A stretch of 64,000 bases of DNA, taken from contig NZ_RBIQ01000007.1 of NCBI RefSeq assembly GCF_003634105.1, positions 62,001 through 126,000 on the forward strand, read 5' to 3'. Below, in pieces: positions 20,680 through 33,455 of this stretch. The notes beneath the pieces are model-generated. The model was not told the DNA's origin and did not search any database. It worked only from the letters and a program-made list of their open reading frames with translations. The stretch's first letter is position 1. Every line of letters starts with the position of its first letter. Source of the stretch: Maribacter vaceletii. Lineage in GTDB: Bacteria; Bacteroidota; Bacteroidia; Flavobacteriales; Flavobacteriaceae. The translations under genes were made by a program, and so were the position numbers.

Positions 20680-23235
20680 TTATAATAAATCGGTATGATA
20701 AATGTACTCCGTTTTAGAATCTAGTTTATATAAATGCTGTAAACGAATTCCTTTTTCCACTTTTTCAAAAGCTTTATATTCTAAACCATCTTCATTATAT
20801 TGTTCAATAGCAAAAGTAGTATCTGTTCTTATTAAAAAAATATAGCTAGAAGGAGTGTTATAAGATTGTCCTTTTATTTTTACTTTCCCAGCTACTAATT
20901 TACCATTCTCAAATTCTGCTGTTCTTTCTACATTACCCTCATCATCATAACCAATAACTTTTCCCTCTAAACTTTCATTATGCAAATTATAAGTTAAGAC
21001 CTTTTTATCATTTAAATTATACTTAACAATCTCTTTATTTGTTTTACTGGTATGTGTTGTTATAATTTTTCCATCCTTTTTAGTATCTATAGATTTTACT
21101 AAACTCCCATCAACATAAGTATCTTCTTGATACGTATCTGAATATGAATTGTAATTAGTTACTTTTCCTTTATAAGGCTTGCCATTTTTATACGTTATTT
21201 TACTTAGTACTTCATCTCCTTTATAATAAATAGCGTCTCCTTCTGGTTTACCATTAACATAATTTACGGATGACTTTTTAGAACCAGAAGCATTGTAGGT
21301 TACAAAGAGCCCCTCTTTTAAATTGTTCTTATAAGCACCTTTTTCTAGCACACTAGAATTATAATCATACTTTTCATAATTACCATTTTTCTTTCCCTCT
21401 TTTATAGTATACAAGACTCTATTTTTTGCATCAAAAGTAGTACCGTTATATAATTCCCCATTTTTAAAAGTAGCTTTAGCAATTAACTTTCCATCTTTAT
21501 CAAAAAATTTAGCATCTTTAGAACTATCTATATCTTTTACTACTACATATTCATAGCCTTTTTTATCATAATTATAAACCCTTTCATAAGTTAAAGCACT
21601 AATTAACTTTCCGTTTTTTATTTCTTCTACTTCTTTTATTTGGTCAGATTCGTAGAAAAACTCATAACGCTTTCCTTCTTTTGTTACAAAATCATAAGTA
21701 CCAATTTTCTCTCCTTTCTCATTAAAATATACCCCTAGAACTGGTTTGTAATTTTTAAAAACTGTATTACTTTGCGCCTTTCCATTACTATAAAATCTTA
21801 TTTCTTTTTCTTTATTATAACCGCTAGAATCATACCCCTCAATTGCTTTATAATAAGCATCATTATTACCTTTTCTTAAAGTAGTTACTTTTATTTTTCT
21901 TCCTGCTTTATATTCTTCTATTCTATCATAAACACCATTATAATAACTATACTTAACACCATCTTCTGGAGATCCGTAAGACCCACTTCTTAATGTTAAG
22001 GTACCCAAAACCTTTCCTTTTTTATCGTAATACGTTTGTAAATCATTTTTTGAAACCATGAATTTAATCTTAGTTTCTGGGTAGTATTTTATCTCTTCAA
22101 TTAAATCTCCGTCTACATAGGTTATTTTAGAATCTCTGTTATATTGTATTCCATTATAAGGTTTGTAATTTTTATAACTTAAACGTGATTTTTCTTTCCC
22201 TTCTTCATCATAAAAAACATCTAACAACTTAACACCATCTTTATAGGTGAAATGGGATTTTATTTTTCCATTCTTATACTTTTCTGTAGACTCTACAATT
22301 TTCCCTTCTTCATAAACAGTGCTATAAGAAAGCCAATCTTCTTCCTTTTTATCTTCTTTTTTGGAGTATGAATAATTAGATTTAAAAGTATATTGTGTCC
22401 CATTATTAGGGCTCAAATAAGAATTTATCATAGTATAGGTTAAAGAACCCAATTCTTCCCCTTTAGTAGTATAATAAACTGTTTTATAGCTTGGTTCCGA
22501 AATAAATTTTTCTCTTATATTTCCGCTTTTATAATATACAGATTTACCTAGCACAGCTCCTCCTTTAGAATAATATTGTATACTAGATATAGAAAATGGA
22601 TTGTAATTATAATACACCTCTATACCTGCTTTATTTCCGTTAGATAAATATTTAGATTCTCCTAAGAGCTCTCCTTTTTTATCATAATACTTCGTGTATT
22701 TTTTTTTGTGTTCCTTATCTAAATACTCTTCGTATCGCAATCCATTTAAATCTCCATTATGATATGTTCTCTTAAAACCATCTTCAATTTCTTTAAAATA
22801 AATATAATAAGAACTGTAGTTTAAATTTGTTTCCCCACTTACATATTTGCCATTCTTATAGGTAGAAATTATCTTTTTATCTTGTATATAACTTATATAT
22901 TCTCCATCTAACTTATTATTTTTATAAGTACCCTCCTGGTAAGCTTTTCCATTTTCTTTATACCAAGTAACCTTACCTTCCCAAAAGTCTTTATCAACAT
23001 ATTTAGATAAAGCATTCATTTGTAAAATACCAGACTTGTAATAATCTTTTACTCTAAAAAAATCTCCTTCTGCTTTTACAGGTGGTCTATAATAACTTGC
23101 ATTTTCTTGTGTAGTTTTCTTCCATTTAGAGTCATACCACAAAGTATCTTGCTGGGCTACTATATTAGTAGTACTATATAATACTACTGCTACAACTATT
23201 ATTAATTGTTTTAAACTCTTTACTACCTTCATCAT
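20680..23235 (-). CDS. Large exported MORN-type (YwqK-like) repeat protein
   Basis: About 851 residues from the first ATG at 23235 (a second ATG follows at 23232; an upstream in-frame TTG at 23253 overlaps the promoter box and is unlikely). The signal peptide is KQLIIVVAVVLYSTTNIVAQ. Nearly all of the mature protein is tandem copies of a repeat of about 20-25 residues such as YYDKKGELLGESKYLSNG or YKNGKIKSHFTYKDG, the MORN_2/YwqK type also annotated as the 'YwqK family antitoxin'. It ends without an obvious sorting domain. Such repeats form extended beta surfaces, probably for protein or lipid contact. No toxin gene adjoins it, so an antitoxin role is not supported. Its promoter carries dyad 1 of the proposed regulon. 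Confidence 0.8.
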   Translation of the reverse strand: MMKVVKSLKQLIIVVAVVLYSTTNIVAQQDTLWYDSKWKKTTQENASYYRPPVKAEGDFFRVKDYYKSGILQMNALSKYVDKDFWEGKVTWYKENGKAYQEGTYKNNKLDGEYISYIQDKKIISTYKNGKYVSGETNLNYSSYYIYFKEIEDGFKRTYHNGDLNGLRYEEYLDKEHKKKYTKYYDKKGELLGESKYLSNGNKAGIEVYYNYNPFSISSIQYYSKGGAVLGKSVYYKSGNIREKFISEPSYKTVYYTTKGEELGSLTYTMINSYLSPNNGTQYTFKSNYSYSKKEDKKEEDWLSYSTVYEEGKIVESTEKYKNGKIKSHFTYKDGVKLLDVFYDEEGKEKSRLSYKNYKPYNGIQYNRDSKITYVDGDLIEEIKYYPETKIKFMVSKNDLQTYYDKKGKVLGTLTLRSGSYGSPEDGVKYSYYNGVYDRIEEYKAGRKIKVTTLRKGNNDAYYKAIEGYDSSGYNKEKEIRFYSNGKAQSNTVFKNYKPVLGVYFNEKGEKIGTYDFVTKEGKRYEFFYESDQIKEVEEIKNGKLISALTYERVYNYDKKGYEYVVVKDIDSSKDAKFFDKDGKLIAKATFKNGELYNGTTFDAKNRVLYTIKEGKKNGNYEKYDYNSSVLEKGAYKNNLKEGLFVTYNASGSKKSSVNYVNGKPEGDAIYYKGDEVLSKITYKNGKPYKGKVTNYNSYSDTYQEDTYVDGSLVKSIDTKKDGKIITTHTSKTNKEIVKYNLNDKKVLTYNLHNESLEGKVIGYDDEGNVERTAEFENGKLVAGKVKIKGQSYNTPSSYIFLIRTDTTFAIEQYNEDGLEYKAFEKVEKGIRLQHLYKLDSKTEYIYHTDLL

Positions 23236-23250
23236 GTAATTTATTTTTAA

Positions 23251-23305
23251 CAAAAGTATTCCTAAAAAATACGTTAAGCATCCCTGTATTTAGGGATTTT
23301 ATAAA
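23251..23305 (-). promoter_or_regulatory. Promoter with dyad operator 1 (MORN-repeat gene)
   Basis: On the minus strand: an A/T-rich box TTTATAAAA (23305-23297), the dyad TCCCT-N6-AGGGA (23296-23281), exactly 22 nt, then TACTTTTG (23258-23251), a full match to the -7 consensus. No TTG is present at -33, as expected for an activator-dependent promoter. The same plan occurs at 23390-23444 and 32402-32456. Confidence 0.7.
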
Positions 23306-23306
23306 A

Positions 23307-23345
23307 GTATAACTATAAAACAGTAGCTCTATTTTATAGTTATAC
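23307..23345. repeat. Perfect 14-bp inverted repeat in divergent promoter region
   Basis: GTATAACTATAAAA at 23307-23320 is the exact reverse complement of 23332-23345, with an 11-nt loop. It is AT-rich with no T tail in either direction, so it is not a standard terminator. It lies between the two divergent dyad promoters and may bind a regulator or form a hairpin. Confidence 0.75.
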
Positions 23346-23389
23346 AATTTTATTACTAAACCTACCGTTTTAAAAAACCTATATAGTTG

Positions 23390-23444
23390 TAATTAAAAAC
23401 CCTATTTACAGGTATCATTAAATTATAAATGCTGAATAAATTTG
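23390..23444 (+). promoter_or_regulatory. Promoter with dyad operator 3 (metzincin gene)
   Basis: A/T-rich TAATTAAAA (23390-23398), the dyad ACCCT-N6-AGGTA (23399-23414), 22 nt, then TAAATTTG (23437-23444), a full -7 match, 17 nt before the ATG. The spacing is identical to the two minus-strand copies; the outer dyad base differs. Confidence 0.6.
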
Positions 23445-23461
23445 AGCCCAAATAAAAAAAT

Positions 23462-24457
23462 ATGAAAAAAATTATTATTCCAATTTTTTCTTTATTAATC
23501 TTTTCATGTAGTAAAGATTCTACTAATGAGTCTAATGATATAGGTAATAACAATCCAGAATTTACAGCTAATCAAAGTTTTAGTATCGAAGAACATTCTG
23601 CTTTTGAAAGCAGTATTGGTACTATTAAAGCTATAGATAAAGATAATGATGCGCTAACCTATACGATACAATCTGAAGCCGATTTAATAATAAATGAAAA
23701 CACCGGAGAAATTACTATAGGCGAGAATACCATATTAGATTTTGAAACTACGCCAAGTATTTCTGCTACCATATCTGTTTTTGATGGTACTACTATTGTA
23801 GATGAAGATATTACTATTACTCTAGAAAATATTGAGGAATATGCTGTTTTAACCGCAGAACAAAAAGAGCTTGTAGATTATTTTAGATATTTAACTTTAT
23901 GGGAAGACTCTAACACCTTAAGCGCTATTCAAAAATGGGGAGCACCAATGAAAATTTTTCTAGACGGTACTATAAGCTCAGACTACCGTGCAACGGTACA
24001 AAGTGTATTAGACCAGTATAACACCTTATTTAATTTAGGAGAATTCTCAATTACTATTGTAGATACCAAAGCAGAGTCTAACGCCCATTTATATTACGGA
24101 GAAGCCCAAGAAATAGAGGCTCTATGGCCAGATATGTATGAGATTATTGAAGGTAAAGCGTATCATGGATATGCTATAAGTTCTGGAACTGGCCTTGCTC
24201 TTAATAATTCTAGAATTTGGATATCTAGTCCAATAGAAACTTTACTAAAACATGAAATAGGACACTCCTTAGGTCTTGGTCACTCAAATAAATGTGATGA
24301 GGAAAAGAGCTTTTTATGCTCTACTATAAGTCCAAATAACGACTTTTTAGATGTAGAAAAAGAAATTATACGTTTTCTTTACCATGAAGATATGGTTCCT
24401 GGAACAACTGCAGAAGAATTAAACAATGCTGTTGGGAATCTAATTTTATTAAGGTAA
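23462..24457 (+). CDS. Lipoprotein with cadherin-like domain and metzincin-type zinc protease motif
   Basis: 331 residues. The lipobox is LLIFSC with Cys16, predicting an envelope lipoprotein. Residues of about 35-125 form a cadherin-like domain (IGTIKAIDKDNDALTYTI, NTGEITIG, ILDFETTPS). The C-terminal half has H264-E-I-G-H268-S-L-G271-L-G-H274, the complete HExxHxxGxxH zinc motif of metzincins such as matrixins. The usual Met-turn is not intact: the corresponding segment reads LCSTISPNNDFLDVEKEI, with Ile where Met is normal. Catalysis is likely but unproven. It is divergent from the MORN-repeat gene and shares its dyad-type promoter. Confidence 0.75.
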   Translation: MKKIIIPIFSLLIFSCSKDSTNESNDIGNNNPEFTANQSFSIEEHSAFESSIGTIKAIDKDNDALTYTIQSEADLIINENTGEITIGENTILDFETTPSISATISVFDGTTIVDEDITITLENIEEYAVLTAEQKELVDYFRYLTLWEDSNTLSAIQKWGAPMKIFLDGTISSDYRATVQSVLDQYNTLFNLGEFSITIVDTKAESNAHLYYGEAQEIEALWPDMYEIIEGKAYHGYAISSGTGLALNNSRIWISSPIETLLKHEIGHSLGLGHSNKCDEEKSFLCSTISPNNDFLDVEKEIIRFLYHEDMVPGTTAEELNNAVGNLILLR

Positions 24458-24774
24458 ATAACCACGTAGCGTATAAATTTTGATTATCAAGTAAGCATTC
24501 TTACAAGAATGTTATTCTTCATAAAATAATAAGTTATAAATAGGCAGATGCGTTACATGTATTTGTCTATTTTATTTTAAATAAATTTAGATTCACTTTT
24601 AAAATAAAAAACTAAGATTCCCAATAAAACAAGGGGGTTTTAAATATTTGTCGTTGCTCTAATTTATTTATCATTTACAATAAAATATAAATTTATTTGA
24701 TATATTGTAGTTTAAAACATACAAGATAATGGGTTTTTTCCCAAAAAATATTCTTTGTAAAAAAACTAACAGTT
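24458..24774. other. Intergenic stretch before the PAS kinase
   Basis: 317 nt, very AT-rich, with no convincing ORF. It holds a weak terminator-like hairpin at 24539-24571. At 24730-24743 there is a small dyad, TGGG-N6-CCCA, about 30 nt before the kinase TTG start. No clean TAnnTTTG promoter was found, so the kinase promoter remains unassigned. Confidence 0.6.
24539..24580 (+). terminator. Possible terminator of the metzincin gene
   Basis: AATAGGCAGAT (24539-24549) pairs with ATTTGTCTATT (24561-24571), including two G-U pairs. The loop is 11 nt, followed by TTATTTTAA. It is 82 nt beyond the stop and weak. Confidence 0.4.
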
Positions 24775-27700
24775 TTGAATAATAGCAAATTTGATATTAA
24801 CCAAACCCTAGAGCTGTTAGAAAACACTAACAAAGTAGCACATATTGGTATATTCCAATTTGATGTTAACACAAAAAAAATTTACTGGAATAATGTATTA
24901 AAATCAATATATGAGGTTTCGGAGGATTTTATCCCAACATTAGACAATATTTTTAATTTTATAAAAGACCCCAAACAAAAAGAGCTTTTCTGCAATATAC
25001 ACGCCAATGCCTTAAAACTTAAAAAGTCATTTGTTTTAGAACATGATATAAGAACTGCAAAAAGAAATAATAAATACTTACAAGTATCTGGCCAACCAGT
25101 ATTTGAAAAAGATAATTGCATAAAAATTCTTGGCACTATAATAGACCTGACAGAATCTAAAAAATCTAAATTAAGCTTAACTAAAACAAACCAGCAACTA
25201 AAAACTGCCGAAATATTAGCAAAATTAGGTTCCTGGAATTGGGACTTAATTACAAATGAATTAAAATGGTCAGATAATTTATATACTATCTTTAACCATA
25301 ACAAAAACACTCCAGTTACTTATGAAGTGTATTTAGATTATATCTATAAAGAAGACAAAGAACATGTAACCAAAAAATTTGAAGACGCAATAGCTCATAA
25401 AAAATATAATAACTCTACCTATCGTATTCAACTAAAAAACGGCGCTATTAAAACCCTTAAATCCGCTGGTAAAGTCATAACAAACAGTAAAGGAGAAATC
25501 CTTAATATTGTTGGTTCTTGCCAAGATATAACGCAAGAACTAGCTGAAAAAAAAGAGCTACTTCAAAAAAATAAACAACTACAACAAACTGAAAATATTA
25601 CAGCAGTAGGTTGTTATAAATTAATTTTAGAAAATGAGGAGTTTAGTTGGACAAATAACATGTACAAAATTTTTGATATTGAACATGGCACCAAAACTAA
25701 CCTAGAACTACTATTTAACCTAATACATCCTGAGGACAGAGATTATATTAAATCTAAGTTAGATGAAATAAAAGAAGAAAAAAAATCTATAACATTTACG
25801 CATCGCATTATAGTAAAGGATGCAACTGTTAAAACAGTGAAAATTGTTTCAGACACAATAACAAACAGTAAAGGAAAGGTTGTAGAAATTTATGGCACTT
25901 GCCAAGATATTACCGATAAACTAAACTCAAAAATAAAGTTACATCAAACCAATAAGCAATTAAATTTAACTGAAAAAGTAGCAAAAGCTGGTTCTTGGCA
26001 ATGGAATATAGAAAAAGATGAATTTAAATGGACCAATAATTTATACAAAATATTAGGCATAAAGGTTGGTACAAAAATTAGTTTTGAATTAATCAATGCA
26101 AATACGCATCCAGAGGATAGGGAACCTGTAAAAAAAGCTATTCAAAAAATATTAGAAACCAATAAGGCCAGTACATTTACGCATCGCATATTACAAAAAA
26201 ACGGGACCTATACAACCCTAGAAGTTATTGCAGAACCTATTACTAATAAAAAAGGGAAAGCTGTAGAACTAATTGGTAGTATTAGAGACATTACAAATAA
26301 TTTAAGTATAGAACAAGAATTACTAGAAGCTAATGAGTTATTGCATTTTGCAGAGCAATTAACTAATATGGGATTTTGGAGATACAAGCCAAACACTAAT
26401 GCTGTTTTTTGGTCAGAGAATCTCTATAAAATGTTTGAGCATCCCAAAGAAGAGAAGTTATCTTTTGAATCTTATTTTAATTGCATTCATCCAGAAGACC
26501 AAGAGTTTGTTAAAGAAAAAATTAACCAATCAATTAATGACAATAAATTTTATGATTTTATGCATAGAATCATAGTAAATTGTGGTGAAATAAGAATTCT
26601 TCAAATTACTGGTAAGATATCAATAAATAAATATGACGGGGTATTAGAATTACTTGGCACATGTTTAGACATTACAGAAAGTGAAACTATAAATATAGAA
26701 TTAACTCAAAAAAACCAACAATTACGTATTGCAGAAAAAATGACTAGAATTGGGAACTGGCAATGGAATCCAAAAACCAATACTGTGATATGGTCCGATA
26801 ATATGTATAACATTTATGAGCATGATAAAAACGAACCTGTAAAATATGAAACCTATATAAGTTACGTTTATGAGGAAGATAAAAGCACTGTAATATCGAA
26901 CCTTAAAGCAGGAATGCAAGATGGAAATTTTAGAAATGCAACGTATAGAATACAATTAAAAAACGGAAAAATAAAAACCCTAAAAACGGTTGGTAAAATC
27001 ATAACCAATAAAGATGGTGATGTTATAGAAATGTTAGGAACTTGCCAAGATGTAACAGAAAGAATACAAAAAGAAATAGAGTTAACGCAAAAAAACCAAC
27101 AGTTTAATTTTGCTGAAAAAATAGCAGACCTAGGTTCTTGGCAATGGGATATAATTAAAAATGAAATTATATGGTCTGATAACCATTATAGAATATTTGG
27201 TATTGAAATTGGCACACCAATAAATCTTGATCTTTTTTATTCCTATATACATCCAGAAGACTTTGATTATGTTAAAAAAAATGAGGCACAAATACTTACA
27301 GAAAAAGAGTTCAGTAAAACTAGATATCGTATTCTACTAGATAATGGCCAAGTAAAAACCTTAGAAGTAATAGGGTATGCAAGCACAAATGGAGAAGGAG
27401 ATATTACAAACCTTATAGGCACTACACAAGATATTACTACAAGGATACAAGCCAAACAAGAGTTATTAGAAAAGAATCAATTACTAGCTGTTGCAGAAAA
27501 TATTTCTGAAATGGGGTCGTGGGAATGGGATCCAATAACTAAAGAATTTACTTGGTCCGATAATTTGTATGAAATTATTGGGTTTGAAAAAGGTTCTAGA
27601 ATAACATTTAAAAAGTATTTATCAAGAATTCCGGAAGAAGAACATGAAATAATATATAAACATGCACAACTTTCCGTTGCCAATAAAAACTTTCAAAAAT

Positions 27701-29322
27701 TTTCGCACACTATAATTTGCCCTGATAATTCTCAAAGAACTTTAGAAATTTCCAGTAAACTAGTAACCAATAATAATGGAGATATAACTAAAATTATTGG
27801 CGCAACTAGAGACGTTACTGAAAAAAGGAATAAAGAAAACGAGCTCATAGAAAAAAACCGACTATTAACTTTTGTAGAACAACTAACACTAATTGGTTAC
27901 TGGCGCTTAAAAGTACCCAGCGCCGAATTTATTTGGTCTGACAATTTATACCGTATTTTTGATATTAAAGTTGGAACCCCAATGAATTTTAATAAATTCC
28001 TAACTCATTTACCTCTAAAGGATAAAAAATATTTAAAAGAACAAAGAGATAAATTTGTTGAAACTAAAGTATTCGAAAAATTTGTTCATCATTTAAAACA
28101 TAAAAATGGTGACATTAAAACTATTGAAGTAGTTGGTACTGTTATTACCAATAAAGATGGAAAAGTAACTGAATTAATAGGTTCAAGTCAAGATATAACG
28201 GAAAATGTAAAAAAAGAAAAAGAGTTAATAAAAAAGAACCAACAGCTTAATAAAGCAGAACATTTAGCAATGATTGGTTCGTTTATCTACAATCCAATCA
28301 TTGATGAGTTTAAATGGTCCAAAAATTCCTATAGGATTTATGATTTTGAAATTGGTATACCCATGAATTTTGATAAATTTCTAACACGTATACACCCTGA
28401 TGATTTTGAGAATTTAGTAAATCATCTTAATGAAATCATGACCAATAAAATATTTAAAAAAATCACATATAAAATAATTCTTAAAAATGGAACCATTAGA
28501 ACTATTGAGGCTATTGGAAATGTAAAAAAGAATAAAAGTGGAAAAGTTATTGAAGTTATAGGAACAAGCAGAGATATAACAGAACAAATGCGAGTTCAAG
28601 AAAAAATAATAGAAACTAATAACAATCTAGAAAAATCCACAGCCGAATTAACTGCAAGGAACAAACAACTTGCAGAATTTAACCATATTACCTCTCATAA
28701 TTTAAGAGCTCCTGTAAGTAATTTAAATGCATTATTAGATCTTTGGAAAGGTGAAGGTAATGAAAACTTAAAAGAGGTTCTTTTTGATAAATTTGAAATT
28801 GTAATTAACCACCTTACTGTTACATTAAACTCTTTAATTGAGTCTTTAAAAGTTACTAACAATATGGATGTGACTATGCAAAAACTTTCCTTTAAAGAAA
28901 CCCTAAATAAAACCGAAGAAATTTTAGCTGCCGAAATTTTAAAAACCAAAACAGTAATTAAAAATAATTTTTCTAACAAGGATACTATTACATATAATCA
29001 AATATACTTAGAAAGTATTTTTCTAAACCTTATAGGTAATGCAATTAAATATAAATCTCCAGACCGTAATCCAGAAATTGAAATTAAGTCTGACACAGTT
29101 AATGGGAAAATAAAATTATCTATTAAAGACAATGGTCTTGGCATAGATTTAAAAAGGCATGGTCATAAATTATTTGGGTTAAATAAGGTTTTTCATAGAC
29201 ATCCAGAAGCTAATGGAATAGGCCTTTTTATGACAAAAACACAAATAGAAGCTATGGGAGGTTCCATTTATGCAGAAAGTGAAGTAAATGTTGGAACTAC
29301 TTTTTTTATAACTTTTAATTAA
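24775..29322 (+). CDS. Soluble sensor histidine kinase with ten PAS/PAC modules
   Basis: 1515 residues. Ten successive PAS-PAC modules of about 125 residues run from about 15 to 1275. Each opens with a G-x-W-like strand (GSWNWD, GNWQW, GYWRLK), then W(S/T)(D/E)N.Y, and ends in G(T/S)..D(I/V)T. A short coiled linker leads to a HisKA-like H-box with H1308 (FNHITSHNLRAPVSNL) and a HATPase with N-box near 1420 (NLIGNAIKY) and G-box near 1452 (DNGLGID). No membrane segments are seen, so sensing is cytoplasmic. The start must be TTG at 24775: the frame closes with a stop at 24727, no ATG lies between, and the next in-frame Met is deep inside module 3. The gene is followed by its response regulator after 5 nt. 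Confidence 0.93.
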   Translation: MNNSKFDINQTLELLENTNKVAHIGIFQFDVNTKKIYWNNVLKSIYEVSEDFIPTLDNIFNFIKDPKQKELFCNIHANALKLKKSFVLEHDIRTAKRNNKYLQVSGQPVFEKDNCIKILGTIIDLTESKKSKLSLTKTNQQLKTAEILAKLGSWNWDLITNELKWSDNLYTIFNHNKNTPVTYEVYLDYIYKEDKEHVTKKFEDAIAHKKYNNSTYRIQLKNGAIKTLKSAGKVITNSKGEILNIVGSCQDITQELAEKKELLQKNKQLQQTENITAVGCYKLILENEEFSWTNNMYKIFDIEHGTKTNLELLFNLIHPEDRDYIKSKLDEIKEEKKSITFTHRIIVKDATVKTVKIVSDTITNSKGKVVEIYGTCQDITDKLNSKIKLHQTNKQLNLTEKVAKAGSWQWNIEKDEFKWTNNLYKILGIKVGTKISFELINANTHPEDREPVKKAIQKILETNKASTFTHRILQKNGTYTTLEVIAEPITNKKGKAVELIGSIRDITNNLSIEQELLEANELLHFAEQLTNMGFWRYKPNTNAVFWSENLYKMFEHPKEEKLSFESYFNCIHPEDQEFVKEKINQSINDNKFYDFMHRIIVNCGEIRILQITGKISINKYDGVLELLGTCLDITESETINIELTQKNQQLRIAEKMTRIGNWQWNPKTNTVIWSDNMYNIYEHDKNEPVKYETYISYVYEEDKSTVISNLKAGMQDGNFRNATYRIQLKNGKIKTLKTVGKIITNKDGDVIEMLGTCQDVTERIQKEIELTQKNQQFNFAEKIADLGSWQWDIIKNEIIWSDNHYRIFGIEIGTPINLDLFYSYIHPEDFDYVKKNEAQILTEKEFSKTRYRILLDNGQVKTLEVIGYASTNGEGDITNLIGTTQDITTRIQAKQELLEKNQLLAVAENISEMGSWEWDPITKEFTWSDNLYEIIGFEKGSRITFKKYLSRIPEEEHEIIYKHAQLSVANKNFQKFSHTIICPDNSQRTLEISSKLVTNNNGDITKIIGATRDVTEKRNKENELIEKNRLLTFVEQLTLIGYWRLKVPSAEFIWSDNLYRIFDIKVGTPMNFNKFLTHLPLKDKKYLKEQRDKFVETKVFEKFVHHLKHKNGDIKTIEVVGTVITNKDGKVTELIGSSQDITENVKKEKELIKKNQQLNKAEHLAMIGSFIYNPIIDEFKWSKNSYRIYDFEIGIPMNFDKFLTRIHPDDFENLVNHLNEIMTNKIFKKITYKIILKNGTIRTIEAIGNVKKNKSGKVIEVIGTSRDITEQMRVQEKIIETNNNLEKSTAELTARNKQLAEFNHITSHNLRAPVSNLNALLDLWKGEGNENLKEVLFDKFEIVINHLTVTLNSLIESLKVTNNMDVTMQKLSFKETLNKTEEILAAEILKTKTVIKNNFSNKDTITYNQIYLESIFLNLIGNAIKYKSPDRNPEIEIKSDTVNGKIKLSIKDNGLGIDLKRHGHKLFGLNKVFHRHPEANGIGLFMTKTQIEAMGGSIYAESEVNVGTTFFITFN

Positions 29323-29327
29323 AAAAA

Positions 29328-29729
29328 ATGAAAAATAAATTGAATGTTTGTATTGTAGATGATGATGAAATTTACCAATACACCATGTCTCTAAATCTAA
29401 AATCTTTAGATTCCGTTGGCGAAATTAAAGTTTTTAATGATGGTTTAGAAGCAACTAATTTTATGCTAGATAAACTCCATAACCAAGAGGAATTACCAGA
29501 CATAATTTTTCTAGACATAAACATGCCAGTAATGGATGGTTTTCAATTTATGGAAGAATATGAAAAAATTAAATCTAAACTTACTAAAAATATAATCATA
29601 TATATGATATCATCCTCCGTAGACCCCGTAGATATTGAAAAAGCAACACAAATAGAAGATATCTCAGATTATTTAACAAAACCAATAAGGCAACAACAAT
29701 TAATGGATATTTTAGAGAAATTGGATTAA
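29328..29729 (+). CDS. Single-domain response regulator (CheY/Rcp1-like)
   Basis: 133 residues, receiver domain only. The acidic pocket is D11-D12-D13 (CIVDDDEIY), the phospho-acceptor D63 (FLDINMPVMDG) and the conserved Lys 118 (YLTKPIRQ). There is no DNA-binding output domain. It lies 5 nt after the multi-PAS kinase, so it is the cognate phospho-acceptor and probably passes the signal on by protein contact. In bacteriophytochrome-type systems the same pairing (PAS kinase plus Rcp1-like regulator) is common. Its transcription factor partner, if any, is not in the window. Confidence 0.95.
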   Translation: MKNKLNVCIVDDDEIYQYTMSLNLKSLDSVGEIKVFNDGLEATNFMLDKLHNQEELPDIIFLDINMPVMDGFQFMEEYEKIKSKLTKNIIIYMISSSVDPVDIEKATQIEDISDYLTKPIRQQQLMDILEKLD

Positions 29730-29806
29730 AAAAAAAGTGAGAAATAGTTAATTATCGTGTGTACTTAACCTAATTATGTTAATTATAACTGCCTAGCATT
29801 TATAAT

Positions 29807-32377
29807 TTAACTACTCTCCATTGTTATAAATACATTACTAAAATTACATTTTTCTAAATCACTCTTATGAATAACAAAAAATAAGTCACCAGCATCTCCC
29901 CATTGCATATCGCCTGCAGAGGTTACTGTTAATAAAGTTATCCAATCTTCTGGGTTTCCTTTTTTATTTAAAGAGGCTTGTAATTCTGGGGCTTCATGCT
30001 GCGTAAATGCATGAGCATTTACAGCATAATTATACTTATTTTTACCTTGCAAAGGTTCTTCAAAAAGGTCATATAAATCTTCCAAAAAATGTTCGTCTTC
30101 CTGTAATTTTTTTGCATCCTCTCCTTTAAACAAATGTGTATTTACATAACTTGCATAAAAAGATGGAGCACTATTAATTTTTTTTACATTTACCTTATAT
30201 CCTTGGTAACTATCCTCTACCATTTCATAATAATCTTCTTCAGAAAACTTAAATCTTTTCCCAGATTTTAAAGTGCTTTCATCTTCTATATAAATTATTT
30301 TTCCTGGGCTACTATCTCCGCCATAGATAGTATGCAAAGTTTCTAAAAAGAAAAAAAGTATGCCTTTTCTAGGCAAATAGTCTTGCAAATGTGTTATTTG
30401 CGAACAATTTATTTGTCCTATAAATTCATAGATATAATTGGTTTTGTTTTCTCTCCAATTATCTCCAAATCTTGGATAGGGAACTTCTTCTGGCAAATCT
30501 GGCATTCCACCAAAACGATGGTTACCCAAATTGGCATAATCTTCTTCTACCTCATGCGTAAAGGAAACACTTTTTTTAACAACACTAAGTAGTGCCTTTT
30601 TATGTTTCTCCAATTTATTTTCTACTATGACCTTTTCAATTTCAGAGACTAATTCTTTATCATTTTTTGCATAAAAAATTGTATTATCCCAAGAAACTAA
30701 ACCTTTCCCATCTGCTCCTTTATAATCATAATCTAACAAGCGTTTTTTGTCTTCTATAGAAAGCTCTATAACTTTTATAGTATTATATACCGATGGCAAA
30801 CTTTCTAATGGGTTTTTATTTAAGTTTATCTTGCCTAATTTAGATTGTTTAGCTAAAGATTTTGGCAACGTTTTTAATAAGTTCCCATCTAAAGAAATAT
30901 TTTGAAGCTCTGGCATCTTAATTTCATTAGGAATATTTGTAATTTTATTATTAGAAACCCAGAAATTTTTTAATTTTGGTAACTGCCATACACCGTTTGG
31001 CAAAGCAAACAAAAGGTTATTTCCTAAAGATAATTGCTCTAAATTTGTAAGCTTCCCTATAGCTTTAGGAAGTTCTTGTATAGAAGTACCACTAAAATGC
31101 AATGTTTTTAACTTTGTTAGTTTAGAAATTTCCTTTGGAACTTCTTTTAATGGTAATTTTTGGTTTTGCCAATTATTAGAACGCTGCGAAATACTTAAGC
31201 TTTCTAAGTTTTTAAAGGCCAATATATTTTTTGGAAAGGAAACAAAATTTGGATTTTCTAAATTTAAAAAACAAACATCATTTGGCGATGCGGTTTCCGT
31301 TTCCTTTAAAGATATAAATTGATAATTAGACCAATTAAGACTTTCAACCTCCATTTTTTTTGCCAATTGTATTGGGAAAGATTTATTATGATAACTTTTA
31401 GTCATTTCACCAGCCATTAACAGCCAACCTTTTTTAAATATAACAGTACCATTAAAATCTAACCTATAATTAAAACCCTTTAATCTAGAGTGCAAAAACA
31501 AAGGGGCATTTGTCTTGCCCTCATTAAACAGTAATTGCCCATCTGGCAATCCGTTTTTATGAATACCTTTTGCTGGTATAACTATTTCTATTCGTCCGTC
31601 TCCTGGGTAATCATCCAATACTTCGTCAGCAATAGCTTTTTTAAACTCTTTAGTTTTTGCACTAATTGTAACCACCAACTCTTTAGACATTTTAGCAATA
31701 ATAGCCTTACAATCTTCTTTAATAAACTGAAATTTAAAGTTACCTACAGTTATATATTCTTTACCATCTGCTGGGATAGTAATATCATATATCTTTTGTT
31801 CTGGCTTTATGCTTGTAGCAGTTACAACTTTTAGTTTTTCTTGGTATTCCTCTTCTTCTTTTTTTATCTCTAAAAGATGTTCTTCCCAAATTTTCTGGCG
31901 GTGTGCTTTATCTCCAAGAATTTTTAAAGATTCAAAAGTTTGCATTACCCATTCTTGTAACTGCCCGTCTTCATTTTTTTCATGAACCACTTTAAATTCT
32001 ATATAATAATCATCATCTAATAAAATCCCAGCAAAAAAATAATTAATATTAAAATGAGTTTCACGAAAAACTGCATCTGTATGTGCTTTTATTAAAAAAG
32101 CATCTAAATCATTTATTTTCTTGTTTTTACCACATATTTTTTCAGATTTAAAATGTACAGACAAACAAGAATCCTGAAACTTTTCTTGCCATGTACTCCC
32201 CAAATAATTGGAACTAAAAAGGTCTGAAAGTTTTAAAACCGCAACACTAATGATTGGCCACTGATTCTTATATTTTATCGTTTTATTATTGGCCCATATT
32301 CCTACTTTAGAAGAATCAAAAATTTCAAAAGCATTTGGTAGGTCTATTTTAAATAAATCAGTTACATGACTTCTCAT
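29807..32377 (-). CDS. LRR-DUF1963 (YwqG-like) protein
   Basis: 856 residues without a signal peptide or membrane segment, so probably cytoplasmic. About 380 N-terminal residues match nothing I know, with a charged helix at about 160-180. Residues of about 389-530 hold leucine-rich repeats of the bacterial/ROCO-like type (L.TLHFSGTSIQELPKAIGKL, L.QLSLGNNLLFALPNGVWQL). From about 615 to the end lies a DUF1963/YwqG domain (GGMPDLPEEVPYP, FIGQINCSQI, LPRKGILFFF, MQWGDAGDLFFVI). DUF1963 proteins are often found near toxin/immunity or T6-like loci, but no such partner is adjacent. Its promoter carries dyad 2, the same plan as the MORN and metzincin genes. Function unknown. Confidence 0.8.
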   Translation of the reverse strand: MRSHVTDLFKIDLPNAFEIFDSSKVGIWANNKTIKYKNQWPIISVAVLKLSDLFSSNYLGSTWQEKFQDSCLSVHFKSEKICGKNKKINDLDAFLIKAHTDAVFRETHFNINYFFAGILLDDDYYIEFKVVHEKNEDGQLQEWVMQTFESLKILGDKAHRQKIWEEHLLEIKKEEEEYQEKLKVVTATSIKPEQKIYDITIPADGKEYITVGNFKFQFIKEDCKAIIAKMSKELVVTISAKTKEFKKAIADEVLDDYPGDGRIEIVIPAKGIHKNGLPDGQLLFNEGKTNAPLFLHSRLKGFNYRLDFNGTVIFKKGWLLMAGEMTKSYHNKSFPIQLAKKMEVESLNWSNYQFISLKETETASPNDVCFLNLENPNFVSFPKNILAFKNLESLSISQRSNNWQNQKLPLKEVPKEISKLTKLKTLHFSGTSIQELPKAIGKLTNLEQLSLGNNLLFALPNGVWQLPKLKNFWVSNNKITNIPNEIKMPELQNISLDGNLLKTLPKSLAKQSKLGKINLNKNPLESLPSVYNTIKVIELSIEDKKRLLDYDYKGADGKGLVSWDNTIFYAKNDKELVSEIEKVIVENKLEKHKKALLSVVKKSVSFTHEVEEDYANLGNHRFGGMPDLPEEVPYPRFGDNWRENKTNYIYEFIGQINCSQITHLQDYLPRKGILFFFLETLHTIYGGDSSPGKIIYIEDESTLKSGKRFKFSEEDYYEMVEDSYQGYKVNVKKINSAPSFYASYVNTHLFKGEDAKKLQEDEHFLEDLYDLFEEPLQGKNKYNYAVNAHAFTQHEAPELQASLNKKGNPEDWITLLTVTSAGDMQWGDAGDLFFVIHKSDLEKCNFSNVFITMESS

Positions 32378-32401
32378 ACATGGTGTATTGAAATTTTATT
32401 G

Positions 32402-32456
32402 CAAAATTGCAGTATTAACATAAGTAACACCTCCCTTATTTCAGGGATTTTACAAA
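32402..32456 (-). promoter_or_regulatory. Promoter with dyad operator 2 (LRR-DUF1963 gene)
   Basis: On the minus strand: TTTGTAAAA (32456-32448), the dyad TCCCT-N6-AGGGA (32447-32432), 22 nt, then CAATTTTG (32409-32402), 7 of 8 to the -7 consensus. Compared with dyad 1, 20 of 25 bases of the box plus dyad agree, and the spacing is identical. It abuts the stop codon of the rhodanese gene. Confidence 0.65.
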
Positions 32457-32874: not shown

Positions 32875-32882
32875 TACTTTTG
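32875..32882 (+). promoter_or_regulatory. -7 element upstream of the ECF sigma gene
   Basis: TACTTTTG is a full match to TAnnTTTG, 18 nt before the ATG at 32901. At the -33 distance only a TTA is seen (32851-32853, spacer 21). Confidence 0.55.
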
Positions 32883-32900
32883 ATACTAATAAATAACAGA

Positions 32901-33455
32901 ATGGCATCTCATCAACTAAATCCAAATATCTGGGTAGATCAATACGCAGATTATCTTTTTAATTATGCTGTTACAAGAGTTAGTGACGCTGAGATTGCAA
33001 AAGATTTAGTACAAGAAACTTTTTTTGCAGGATTAAAATCTGCTAAAAATTATAAAGGAGATGCTGCAGAGCGTACTTGGTTAATAGCAATTCTTAAAAG
33101 AAAAGTAATAGACCATTACCGAAAAATAAATTCTAAGAAAGGCAAGGCAGAAGTTCGTATGAACTATAGTGCTAATAGTGATTCTGAAGGAGATTGGCTA
33201 GAAGAACAAGTGGCAGACCCTTTTAGCACTATGAATAATAATCTATTAGAAAATGAGGAATTGGGTGAAGCTATACAACTATGTATTTCTAAATTACCTA
33301 AAAAACAATCTAAAGTTTTTGTAATGAAAACAGTTCAGGGTATAGATACAGAAGATATTTGTAATGAACTAGGAATTAATCCGTCTAATTTGTGGGTTAT
33401 GATTCACAGAGCCAGAACTGCCCTTATGGATTGTTTAAATAAAAATTGGTTTTAA
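32901..33455 (+). CDS. ECF-type RNA polymerase sigma factor
   Basis: 184 residues from the ATG at 32901 (the frame extends to a TTG at 32880, which lies in the -7 box). Region 2 is ADYLFNYAVTRVSDAEIAKDLVQETFFAGLKSAKNYKGDAAERTWLIAILKRKVIDHYRK in the expected order. Region 4 is AIQLCISKLPKKQSKVFVMK followed by the helix-turn-helix TEDICNELGINPSNLWVMIHRARTAL. A gene for a small zinc-binding protein starts 3 nt downstream and is likely its anti-sigma factor. The signal and regulon are unknown. Confidence 0.93.
   Translation: MASHQLNPNIWVDQYADYLFNYAVTRVSDAEIAKDLVQETFFAGLKSAKNYKGDAAERTWLIAILKRKVIDHYRKINSKKGKAEVRMNYSANSDSEGDWLEEQVADPFSTMNNNLLENEELGEAIQLCISKLPKKQSKVFVMKTVQGIDTEDICNELGINPSNLWVMIHRARTALMDCLNKNWF

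Follow-up and report, generated by a model that had tools for sequence, protein, structure and literature searches.

Exactly spaced promoter dyads in Maribacter vaceletii as predicted operators of a NarL/FixJ-type response regulator and its TPR-HisKA_3 kinase

Three promoters with a dyad at a fixed distance from the -7 box

The stretch of DNA analyzed here, called the window, covers 64,000 nucleotides (nt) of the Maribacter vaceletii genome (assembly GCF_003634105.1, contig NZ_RBIQ01000007.1, positions 62,001 to 126,000) and carries three promoters in which a short dyad, CCCT-N6-AGG, precedes a TAnnTTTG-like box by the same number of nucleotides. We propose, with a probability of about 0.87, that these dyads are class 1 (single-dyad) operators of one NarL/FixJ response regulator paired with a TPR-HisKA_3 kinase, encoded outside the window on contig C5 of the same genome. 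The dyads, given as 14-base-pair (bp) cores, the boxes and the presumed target genes, with protein lengths in amino acids (aa), are as follows.

20680-23253, minus: MORN_2 (YwqK-like) protein, ~850 aa, presumed target of dyad 1
23251-23258, minus: -7 box of the MORN promoter, TACTTTTG
23282-23295, minus: core of dyad 1, CCCTAAATACAGGG, predicted class 1 operator of the MORN/YwqK gene, with its centre deduced to be at -42.5
23400-23413, plus: core of dyad 3, CCCTATTTACAGGT, one core mismatch, predicted class 1 operator
23437-23444, plus: -7 box of the dyad 3 promoter, TAAATTTG
23462-24457, plus: lipoprotein-like protein (domains: cadherin, DUF2927; weak match to matrixin), presumed target of dyad 3
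29807-32377, minus: LRR-DUF1963 protein, 856 aa, presumed target of dyad 2
32402-32409, minus: -7 box of the dyad 2 promoter, CAATTTTG
32433-32446, minus: core of dyad 2, CCCTGAAATAAGGG, predicted class 1 operator

An earlier note on this DNA had described three dyads separated from their boxes by 22 nt, and the sequence bears out the dyads, the boxes and the gaps exactly; 22 nt from its 16-mers is the same as 23 nt from the 14-bp core, and all spacings below are counted from the core unless the 16-mer is stated. The product that it called a metzincin lipoprotein is the lipoprotein-like protein listed above. We agree, on inspection by eye, that the dyad promoters have no TTG at -33, and the earlier observation that no further copy occurs at the promoters checked holds for the window, where CCCTN6AGG is confined to the three dyad places (five strand-wise matches). 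Divergently oriented genes flank dyads 1 and 3, each of which is 5' of its target's start codon. The open reading frame (ORF) start of the MORN gene at 23253 (TTG, a mechanical call) overlaps its promoter, and ATGs near 23235 and 23232 are likelier starts. Dyads 1 and 2 share the A/T flank TTTRTAAAA, which is seen in this genome and, loosely, elsewhere.

The spacing of 23 nt exceeds chance, whereas the dyad does not

The dyad alone is not in excess. The five window matches compare with 2.76 expected, and 16 of 100 shuffles reach five; in the whole genome, the one-mismatch dyad occurs at 43 places against 41 for the reversed control. The case could therefore not rest on the dyad by itself, which is at chance level; it is the arrangement of dyad and box that is in excess. 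A search of the genome with CCCTN6AGG-N{9,39}-YANNTTTG returned 11 places (reversed control, 4), three of which fall at one spacing out of the 31 possible, and these three are the dyads of the window.

The genome-wide and family-wide scan that the earlier note had called for gave a peak at the predicted distance. In 349 Flavobacteriaceae genomes, which are also the set for the other family-wide counts below, CCCTN6AGGG followed by TANNTTTG at 13 to 33 nt gave at least 150 matches, and 23 nt was the highest of the 21 spacing bins, with 22 of the 150 matches listed where ~7 would be expected (binomial, 3e-6); the next-highest bins held 11 each among the matches listed. Of 20 retrieved sites at 23 nt, 19 did not fall in an ORF and preceded a gene in the same orientation, a count that is no unbiased rate, as the sites were hand-picked and some coding-looking ones omitted.

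Genes behind the 23-nt sites gave Pfam hits to MORN_2, M48 peptidase, ankyrin, TraB, DUF3829 and DUF4153, and also to bacterial macroglobulin, secreted Ig-like/HYR, receptor-L and multihaem cytochrome proteins. Twice, the gene was that of a TPR-HisKA_3 histidine kinase, and this led us to the kinase-regulator locus on contig C5. At locus L131 (genome G329), the 45-nt arrangement of dyad and box precedes a multihaem cytochrome c gene and the regulator orthologue was undetected; this site may be due to chance or to another regulator.

The register is conserved at orthologous promoters

Within the genus, dyad 1 precedes the MORN gene in 8/8 genomes at exactly 23 nt from the box, with 0 to 2 core mismatches, and the register is kept even where the MORN protein is only 49% identical. 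The arrangement of dyad 3 is exact in G007, and in G002 the dyad is kept with a degenerate box (TAAATTAG). Among the other genus genomes (8 genomes examined), a full-length LRR-DUF1963 orthologue was found in G004 only; there the gene lies inside an operon whose first gene has the 14-mer CCCTGAAATAAGGG in front of it, at 23 nt from the box. A search of genome contigs for LRR-DUF1963 relatives returned a single locus (L003), which is not independent of G004. The spacing is thus conserved upstream of orthologues, the check that the earlier note had suggested, and neither outcome that it had named as telling against the arrangement, loss of the spacing at orthologous promoters or a frequency no higher than chance, came true. 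A regulator orthologue was detected in 8/8 genus genomes.

A kinase-regulator pair flanked by the dyad

On contig C5 (locus L136), the gene of a TPR-HisKA_3 kinase (10027-8060) overlaps that of a response regulator (8070-7426; 214 aa, REC-GerE), and dyads stand 5' of the kinase gene as well as in the gap that separates the regulator gene from the one after it. The Pfam matches of the regulator (Response_reg, 7e-19; GerE, 2e-17) place it in the NarL/FixJ family, and the phosphoacceptor and catalytic residues D9, D10, D58 and K108 are invariant in 40/40 aligned regulators. The overlap with the gene of a TPR-HisKA_3-HATPase_c kinase, as expected of a cognate partner, recurs in G017, where a class 1 arrangement precedes the orthologous pair. 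Genome G410 has a second TPR-HisKA_3 kinase with a class 1 site (L132:5904-8003, minus strand) and no adjoining regulator gene called; the regulator operon of G410 lies elsewhere.

A regulator match of at least 51% identity, below which values drop to 48% or less, defined 35 of the 349 genomes as carriers; 8 candidates were scored per genome, where first looks list 13 to 83, and a missed orthologue is therefore possible. The looser dyad CCCTNWWWWNAGGG, counted genome-wide, was rejected as a carrier marker, since 305/349 genomes match and reversed controls are often similar (11 against 15 in the carrier G411). Among the matches listed, carriers hold 17/22 of those at 23 nt and 21/128 of those at other spacings (Fisher, 3e-8), and a match at 23 nt occurs in 19 genomes, 14 of them carriers.

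A second register at 47 nt with probable tandem operators

The dyads around the regulator gene are near-perfect (CCCTGAAAACAGGG) and have the box 47 nt away. The spacing was 47 nt in 15 of 21 sites near the regulator, 48 nt in two, 23 nt in one and neither in three, this set having been taken from a narrower interval than the locus survey and omitting one extra dyad of L174 (+289). A blind scan of the 349 genomes with CCCTGN4CAGGG-N{33,61}-NANNTTTG, listed completely, gave 77 matches, 36 of them at exactly 47 nt (binomial, 6.5e-32) and three at 48 nt, while every other spacing had four or fewer. Carriers account for 33 of the 36 matches at 47 nt and for 23 of the 26 genomes that have one (Fisher, 3.5e-24).

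In these class 2 sites, a 14-mer placed 24 bp further downstream also resembles the core, with a mean of 4.54 of 8 core matches over 41 sites (one of them, in L037, probably a chance site) against 1.68 +/- 0.17 in 2000 shuffles (maximum, 2.22) and 3.12 for the next best offset. The consensus of this weak dyad is CACT-N6-RGTG, and it falls exactly at the class 1 position; no comparable partner dyad was seen upstream of class 1 sites. In the accessible part of the start-site map of Flavobacterium psychrophilum, the TAnnTTTG sigma-A box occupies -12 to -5 (PMC9723704), which would put the class 1 dyad and the weak class 2 dyad at -42.5 and the strong class 2 dyad at -66.5. The centre near -42 given in the earlier note is recovered by this deduction; the candidate regulator, the second register 24 bp further upstream with its tandem operators, and the best core, CCCTG-W4-CAGGG, go beyond that note.

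Sites of either register are linked to the regulator locus as well as to the carrier genomes. At 29 of 38 regulator loci (35 genomes, three having two loci), the operon strand carries a dyad at 23, 47 or 48 nt that has no more than one core mismatch, and at 21/38 it has none; 30 random sets of three other spacings were matched by 0.43 loci on average and by 2 at most, and the opposite strand gave 4. Among the matches listed, 29/35 carriers have one in either register, and two carriers (G008 and G359) have a class 2 site with one core mismatch. The helix-turn-helix is near-constant in carriers (SKHT[IV]ES[YR] region), and its histidine is replaced by tyrosine at three loci of G204 and G391, two carriers without sites; as a correlate of the missing sites this exchange is suggestive only.

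The putative regulon and two presumed class 2 targets

The scan of the M. vaceletii genome covered 37/43 loose dyads and yielded seven intergenic dyads in register, namely the three of the window at 23 nt and four at 47 nt; an eighth, with a spacing of 22, is intragenic. The 47-nt sites precede the kinase-regulator operon, the gene of a 127-aa protein after it, the gene of a 141-aa membrane protein (mem141) at 108 kb of C5 and a 113-aa ORF on contig C1.

Of the 36 sites at 47 nt in the family, 15 were retrieved, mostly those away from the regulator, and the downstream gene was mem141 in eight and a LipL32-like protein in two (G313 and G410). The mem141 gene adjoins the regulator, before or after it, in several genera; in M. 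vaceletii it does not, but keeps its class 2 site. Its product (L137:7588-8013, minus strand) is a helical protein with two similar segments, ELLAKVEPYQGWIG and ELRAKIAPKQGKLG, and a mean column identity of 79% across genera over 24 aligned orthologues (for example in L275, L280 and L186). No match was found in Pfam or NCBIfam; the structural model is all-helical and confident (predicted local distance difference test score, 86.8) and has no fold match in the PDB at an E value of 0.001 or less. The LipL32-like protein is encoded near the regulator operon (L122:11909-12589, plus strand) and, in L270 and L277, downstream of class 2 sites; it matches Pfam Lipl32 with 6e-83 and NCBIfam LipL32 with 118 bits, below the cut-off of 300.

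Weighing of alternative explanations

Several results weigh against assigning the sites to this regulator. The class 1 target families are not constant between genera, and 4/35 carriers (G209, G356, G204 and G391) have no site in either register. In only 6/40 loci is there a perfect dyad no more than 350 nt from the kinase start as called; eight of the 40 loci have no called kinase start. Five of the 22 matches at 23 nt, among those listed, are in non-carriers (G277, G036, G329, G339 and G061); the two of these sites that were retrieved, in G329 before a cytochrome gene and in G036, are intergenic by the ORF test. Matches at 47 nt also occur in the non-carriers G292, G323 and G084, and the one retrieved, the class 2 site of G292, precedes a mem141 orthologue even though no regulator orthologue was found among the 8 candidates scored there, where a miss is possible. 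Co-occurrence, moreover, may reflect another regulator co-inherited with this one. These sites in non-carriers, together with the 13 to 83 candidates per genome in first looks, would fit a different NarL-family regulator, for which the kinase-regulator operon would be just one more target. We consider this unlikely given that carriers make up 35/349 genomes but hold 33/36 of the 47-nt matches, and that eight carrier/non-carrier pairs within genera agree, among the matches listed (G017/G307, G303/G010, G229/G405, G166/G366, G385/G197, G410/G236, G399/G218 and G028/G315).

CRP sites have a 5-6-5 geometry and, at class II promoters, a position near -42.5, both of which are matched by TCCCT-N6-AGGGA. 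A dimer of CRP/FNR type was our first guess for the binding protein; it was dropped once the regulator operon emerged, and the fact that the sites co-occur with and adjoin the operon of a NarL-type regulator, the one regulator covered by the profile, makes it quite unlikely. The dyads might instead be RNA hairpins acting as terminators. CCCTG-AAAA-CAGGG can fold, such a dyad follows the regulator gene within 400 nt in 14/40 loci, and the looser dyad without a box is common in the family (305/349 genomes), as would fit terminators elsewhere. A fixed spacing to a promoter box further downstream is nothing that a terminator requires, but 36/77 dyads have one of precisely 47 nt, and dyads 1 and 3, flanked by divergent genes, are 5' of the start codons of their targets; all of this makes the explanation extremely improbable. 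That three dyads should share one spacing within 12 kb by chance might be entertained from the frequency of the dyad, itself at chance level; this is refuted, since the spacing had been fixed beforehand by the earlier note, coincides with the peak in other genomes and is retained at orthologous promoters.

Proposed mechanism

Returning to control by the NarL/FixJ regulator of C5, the kinase would sense a signal and then phosphorylate the regulator, whose dimer, presumably in the phosphorylated state, would bind CCCTG-W4-CAGGG. In class 1 promoters, a single dimer at -42.5 would sit beside RNA polymerase on a TAnnTTTG box that has no TTG at -33, touch the polymerase and activate it. In class 2 promoters, a dimer on the near-perfect dyad at -66.5 would help a second one onto the weak CACT-N6-RGTG at -42.5, 24 bp away, a cooperativity that we infer from the tandem arrangement; these promoters would be those of mem141, the LipL32-like protein, the kinase-regulator operon and the gene after the operon. 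The class 1 operator has the layout of a class II activator site, since it abuts the polymerase site with its centre at -42.5, if the box is at -12 to -5, and the -33 TTG is absent by eye. The activator contacting RNA polymerase that the earlier note had envisaged is supported by the register, which is conserved at orthologous promoters and above chance; activation, as opposed to mere binding, is suggested by the position and by the missing -33 TTG.

At a little under even odds, we tentatively extend this to a promoter code that may be family-wide in Flavobacteriaceae. One orphan-looking two-component system would read two promoter classes by exact helical register, either a single dyad of medium strength at -42.5 or a near-perfect dyad at -66.5 recruiting a second dimer to a purposely weak one at -42.5, so that core genes (mem141, the LipL32-like protein and the system itself) and variable, lineage-specific envelope or surface genes (MORN, LRR, ankyrin, macroglobulin, TraB and others) would switch at different phosphorylation thresholds.

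Comparison with known systems

The pair shares with LuxR a LuxR/GerE-type helix-turn-helix acting on a palindrome that adjoins RNA polymerase, the lux box being centred at -42.5, but LuxR depends on an autoinducer, binds a 20-bp box and is not part of a two-component system. VraR of the Staphylococcus aureus VraSR system is likewise a NarL-family regulator and, among solved structures, comes closest in sequence (E value, 7e-27). The vraSR promoter has, in the available part of the description, two sites, of which R1 is conserved while R2 is less so and needs phosphorylation-induced dimerisation (PMC6612188), which parallels the strong and weak dyads here; VraSR differs in its motif and targets and in having a short membrane sensor instead of a TPR sensor, and the promoters here are of the Bacteroidota TAnnTTTG type. 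LiaFSR of Bacillus subtilis also combines a HisKA_3 kinase with a NarL-type regulator, and LiaS is the best NCBIfam neighbour of our kinase (E value, 4e-30). According to the accessible text on LiaR, its primary site spans -76 to -52 with a secondary site beside it and has the motif T(X)4C(X)4G(X)4A (PMC7191749); the LiaR secondary site lies upstream of the primary one, whereas the weak dyad here is downstream of the strong one, and CCCTGW4CAGGG does not contain that motif in that spacing, as judged by eye. The kinase scores 105 bits against the LiaS cut-off of 450, and the best regulator model 139 against 242, so that the pair may work like a LiaSR/VraSR-type system without being a member of it.

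The TAnnTTTG box at -12 to -5 is the one described for flavobacterial sigma-A promoters, and no CCCT/AGGG operator is named in the available part of that study (PMC9723704). Neither this operator nor the kinase-regulator pair was described in the literature searched, none of which contains CCCTGAAAACAGGG (partial coverage, supplements outside). The unusual box that the primary sigma factor recognises is the reason why the mapping of activator-dependent promoters in Bacteroidota is poor, as far as the accessible part of the same study goes (PMC9723704). The present sequence analysis allows a regulator and its operator to be proposed along with a target list and two exact operator positions, which offers a functional handle on proteins without an assigned role, namely mem141, the LipL32-like surface protein, MORN and LRR-DUF1963.

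Neighbouring genes in the window

Between the dyad 3 target and the LRR-DUF1963 gene (24775-29729), the window encodes a 1515-aa multi-PAS histidine kinase with nine PAS_3 stretches and a single-domain receiver protein, and no dyad was seen before either gene. An ECF sigma factor gene (32880-33455; Sigma70_r2, r4_2) adjoins the rhodanese gene behind dyad 2.

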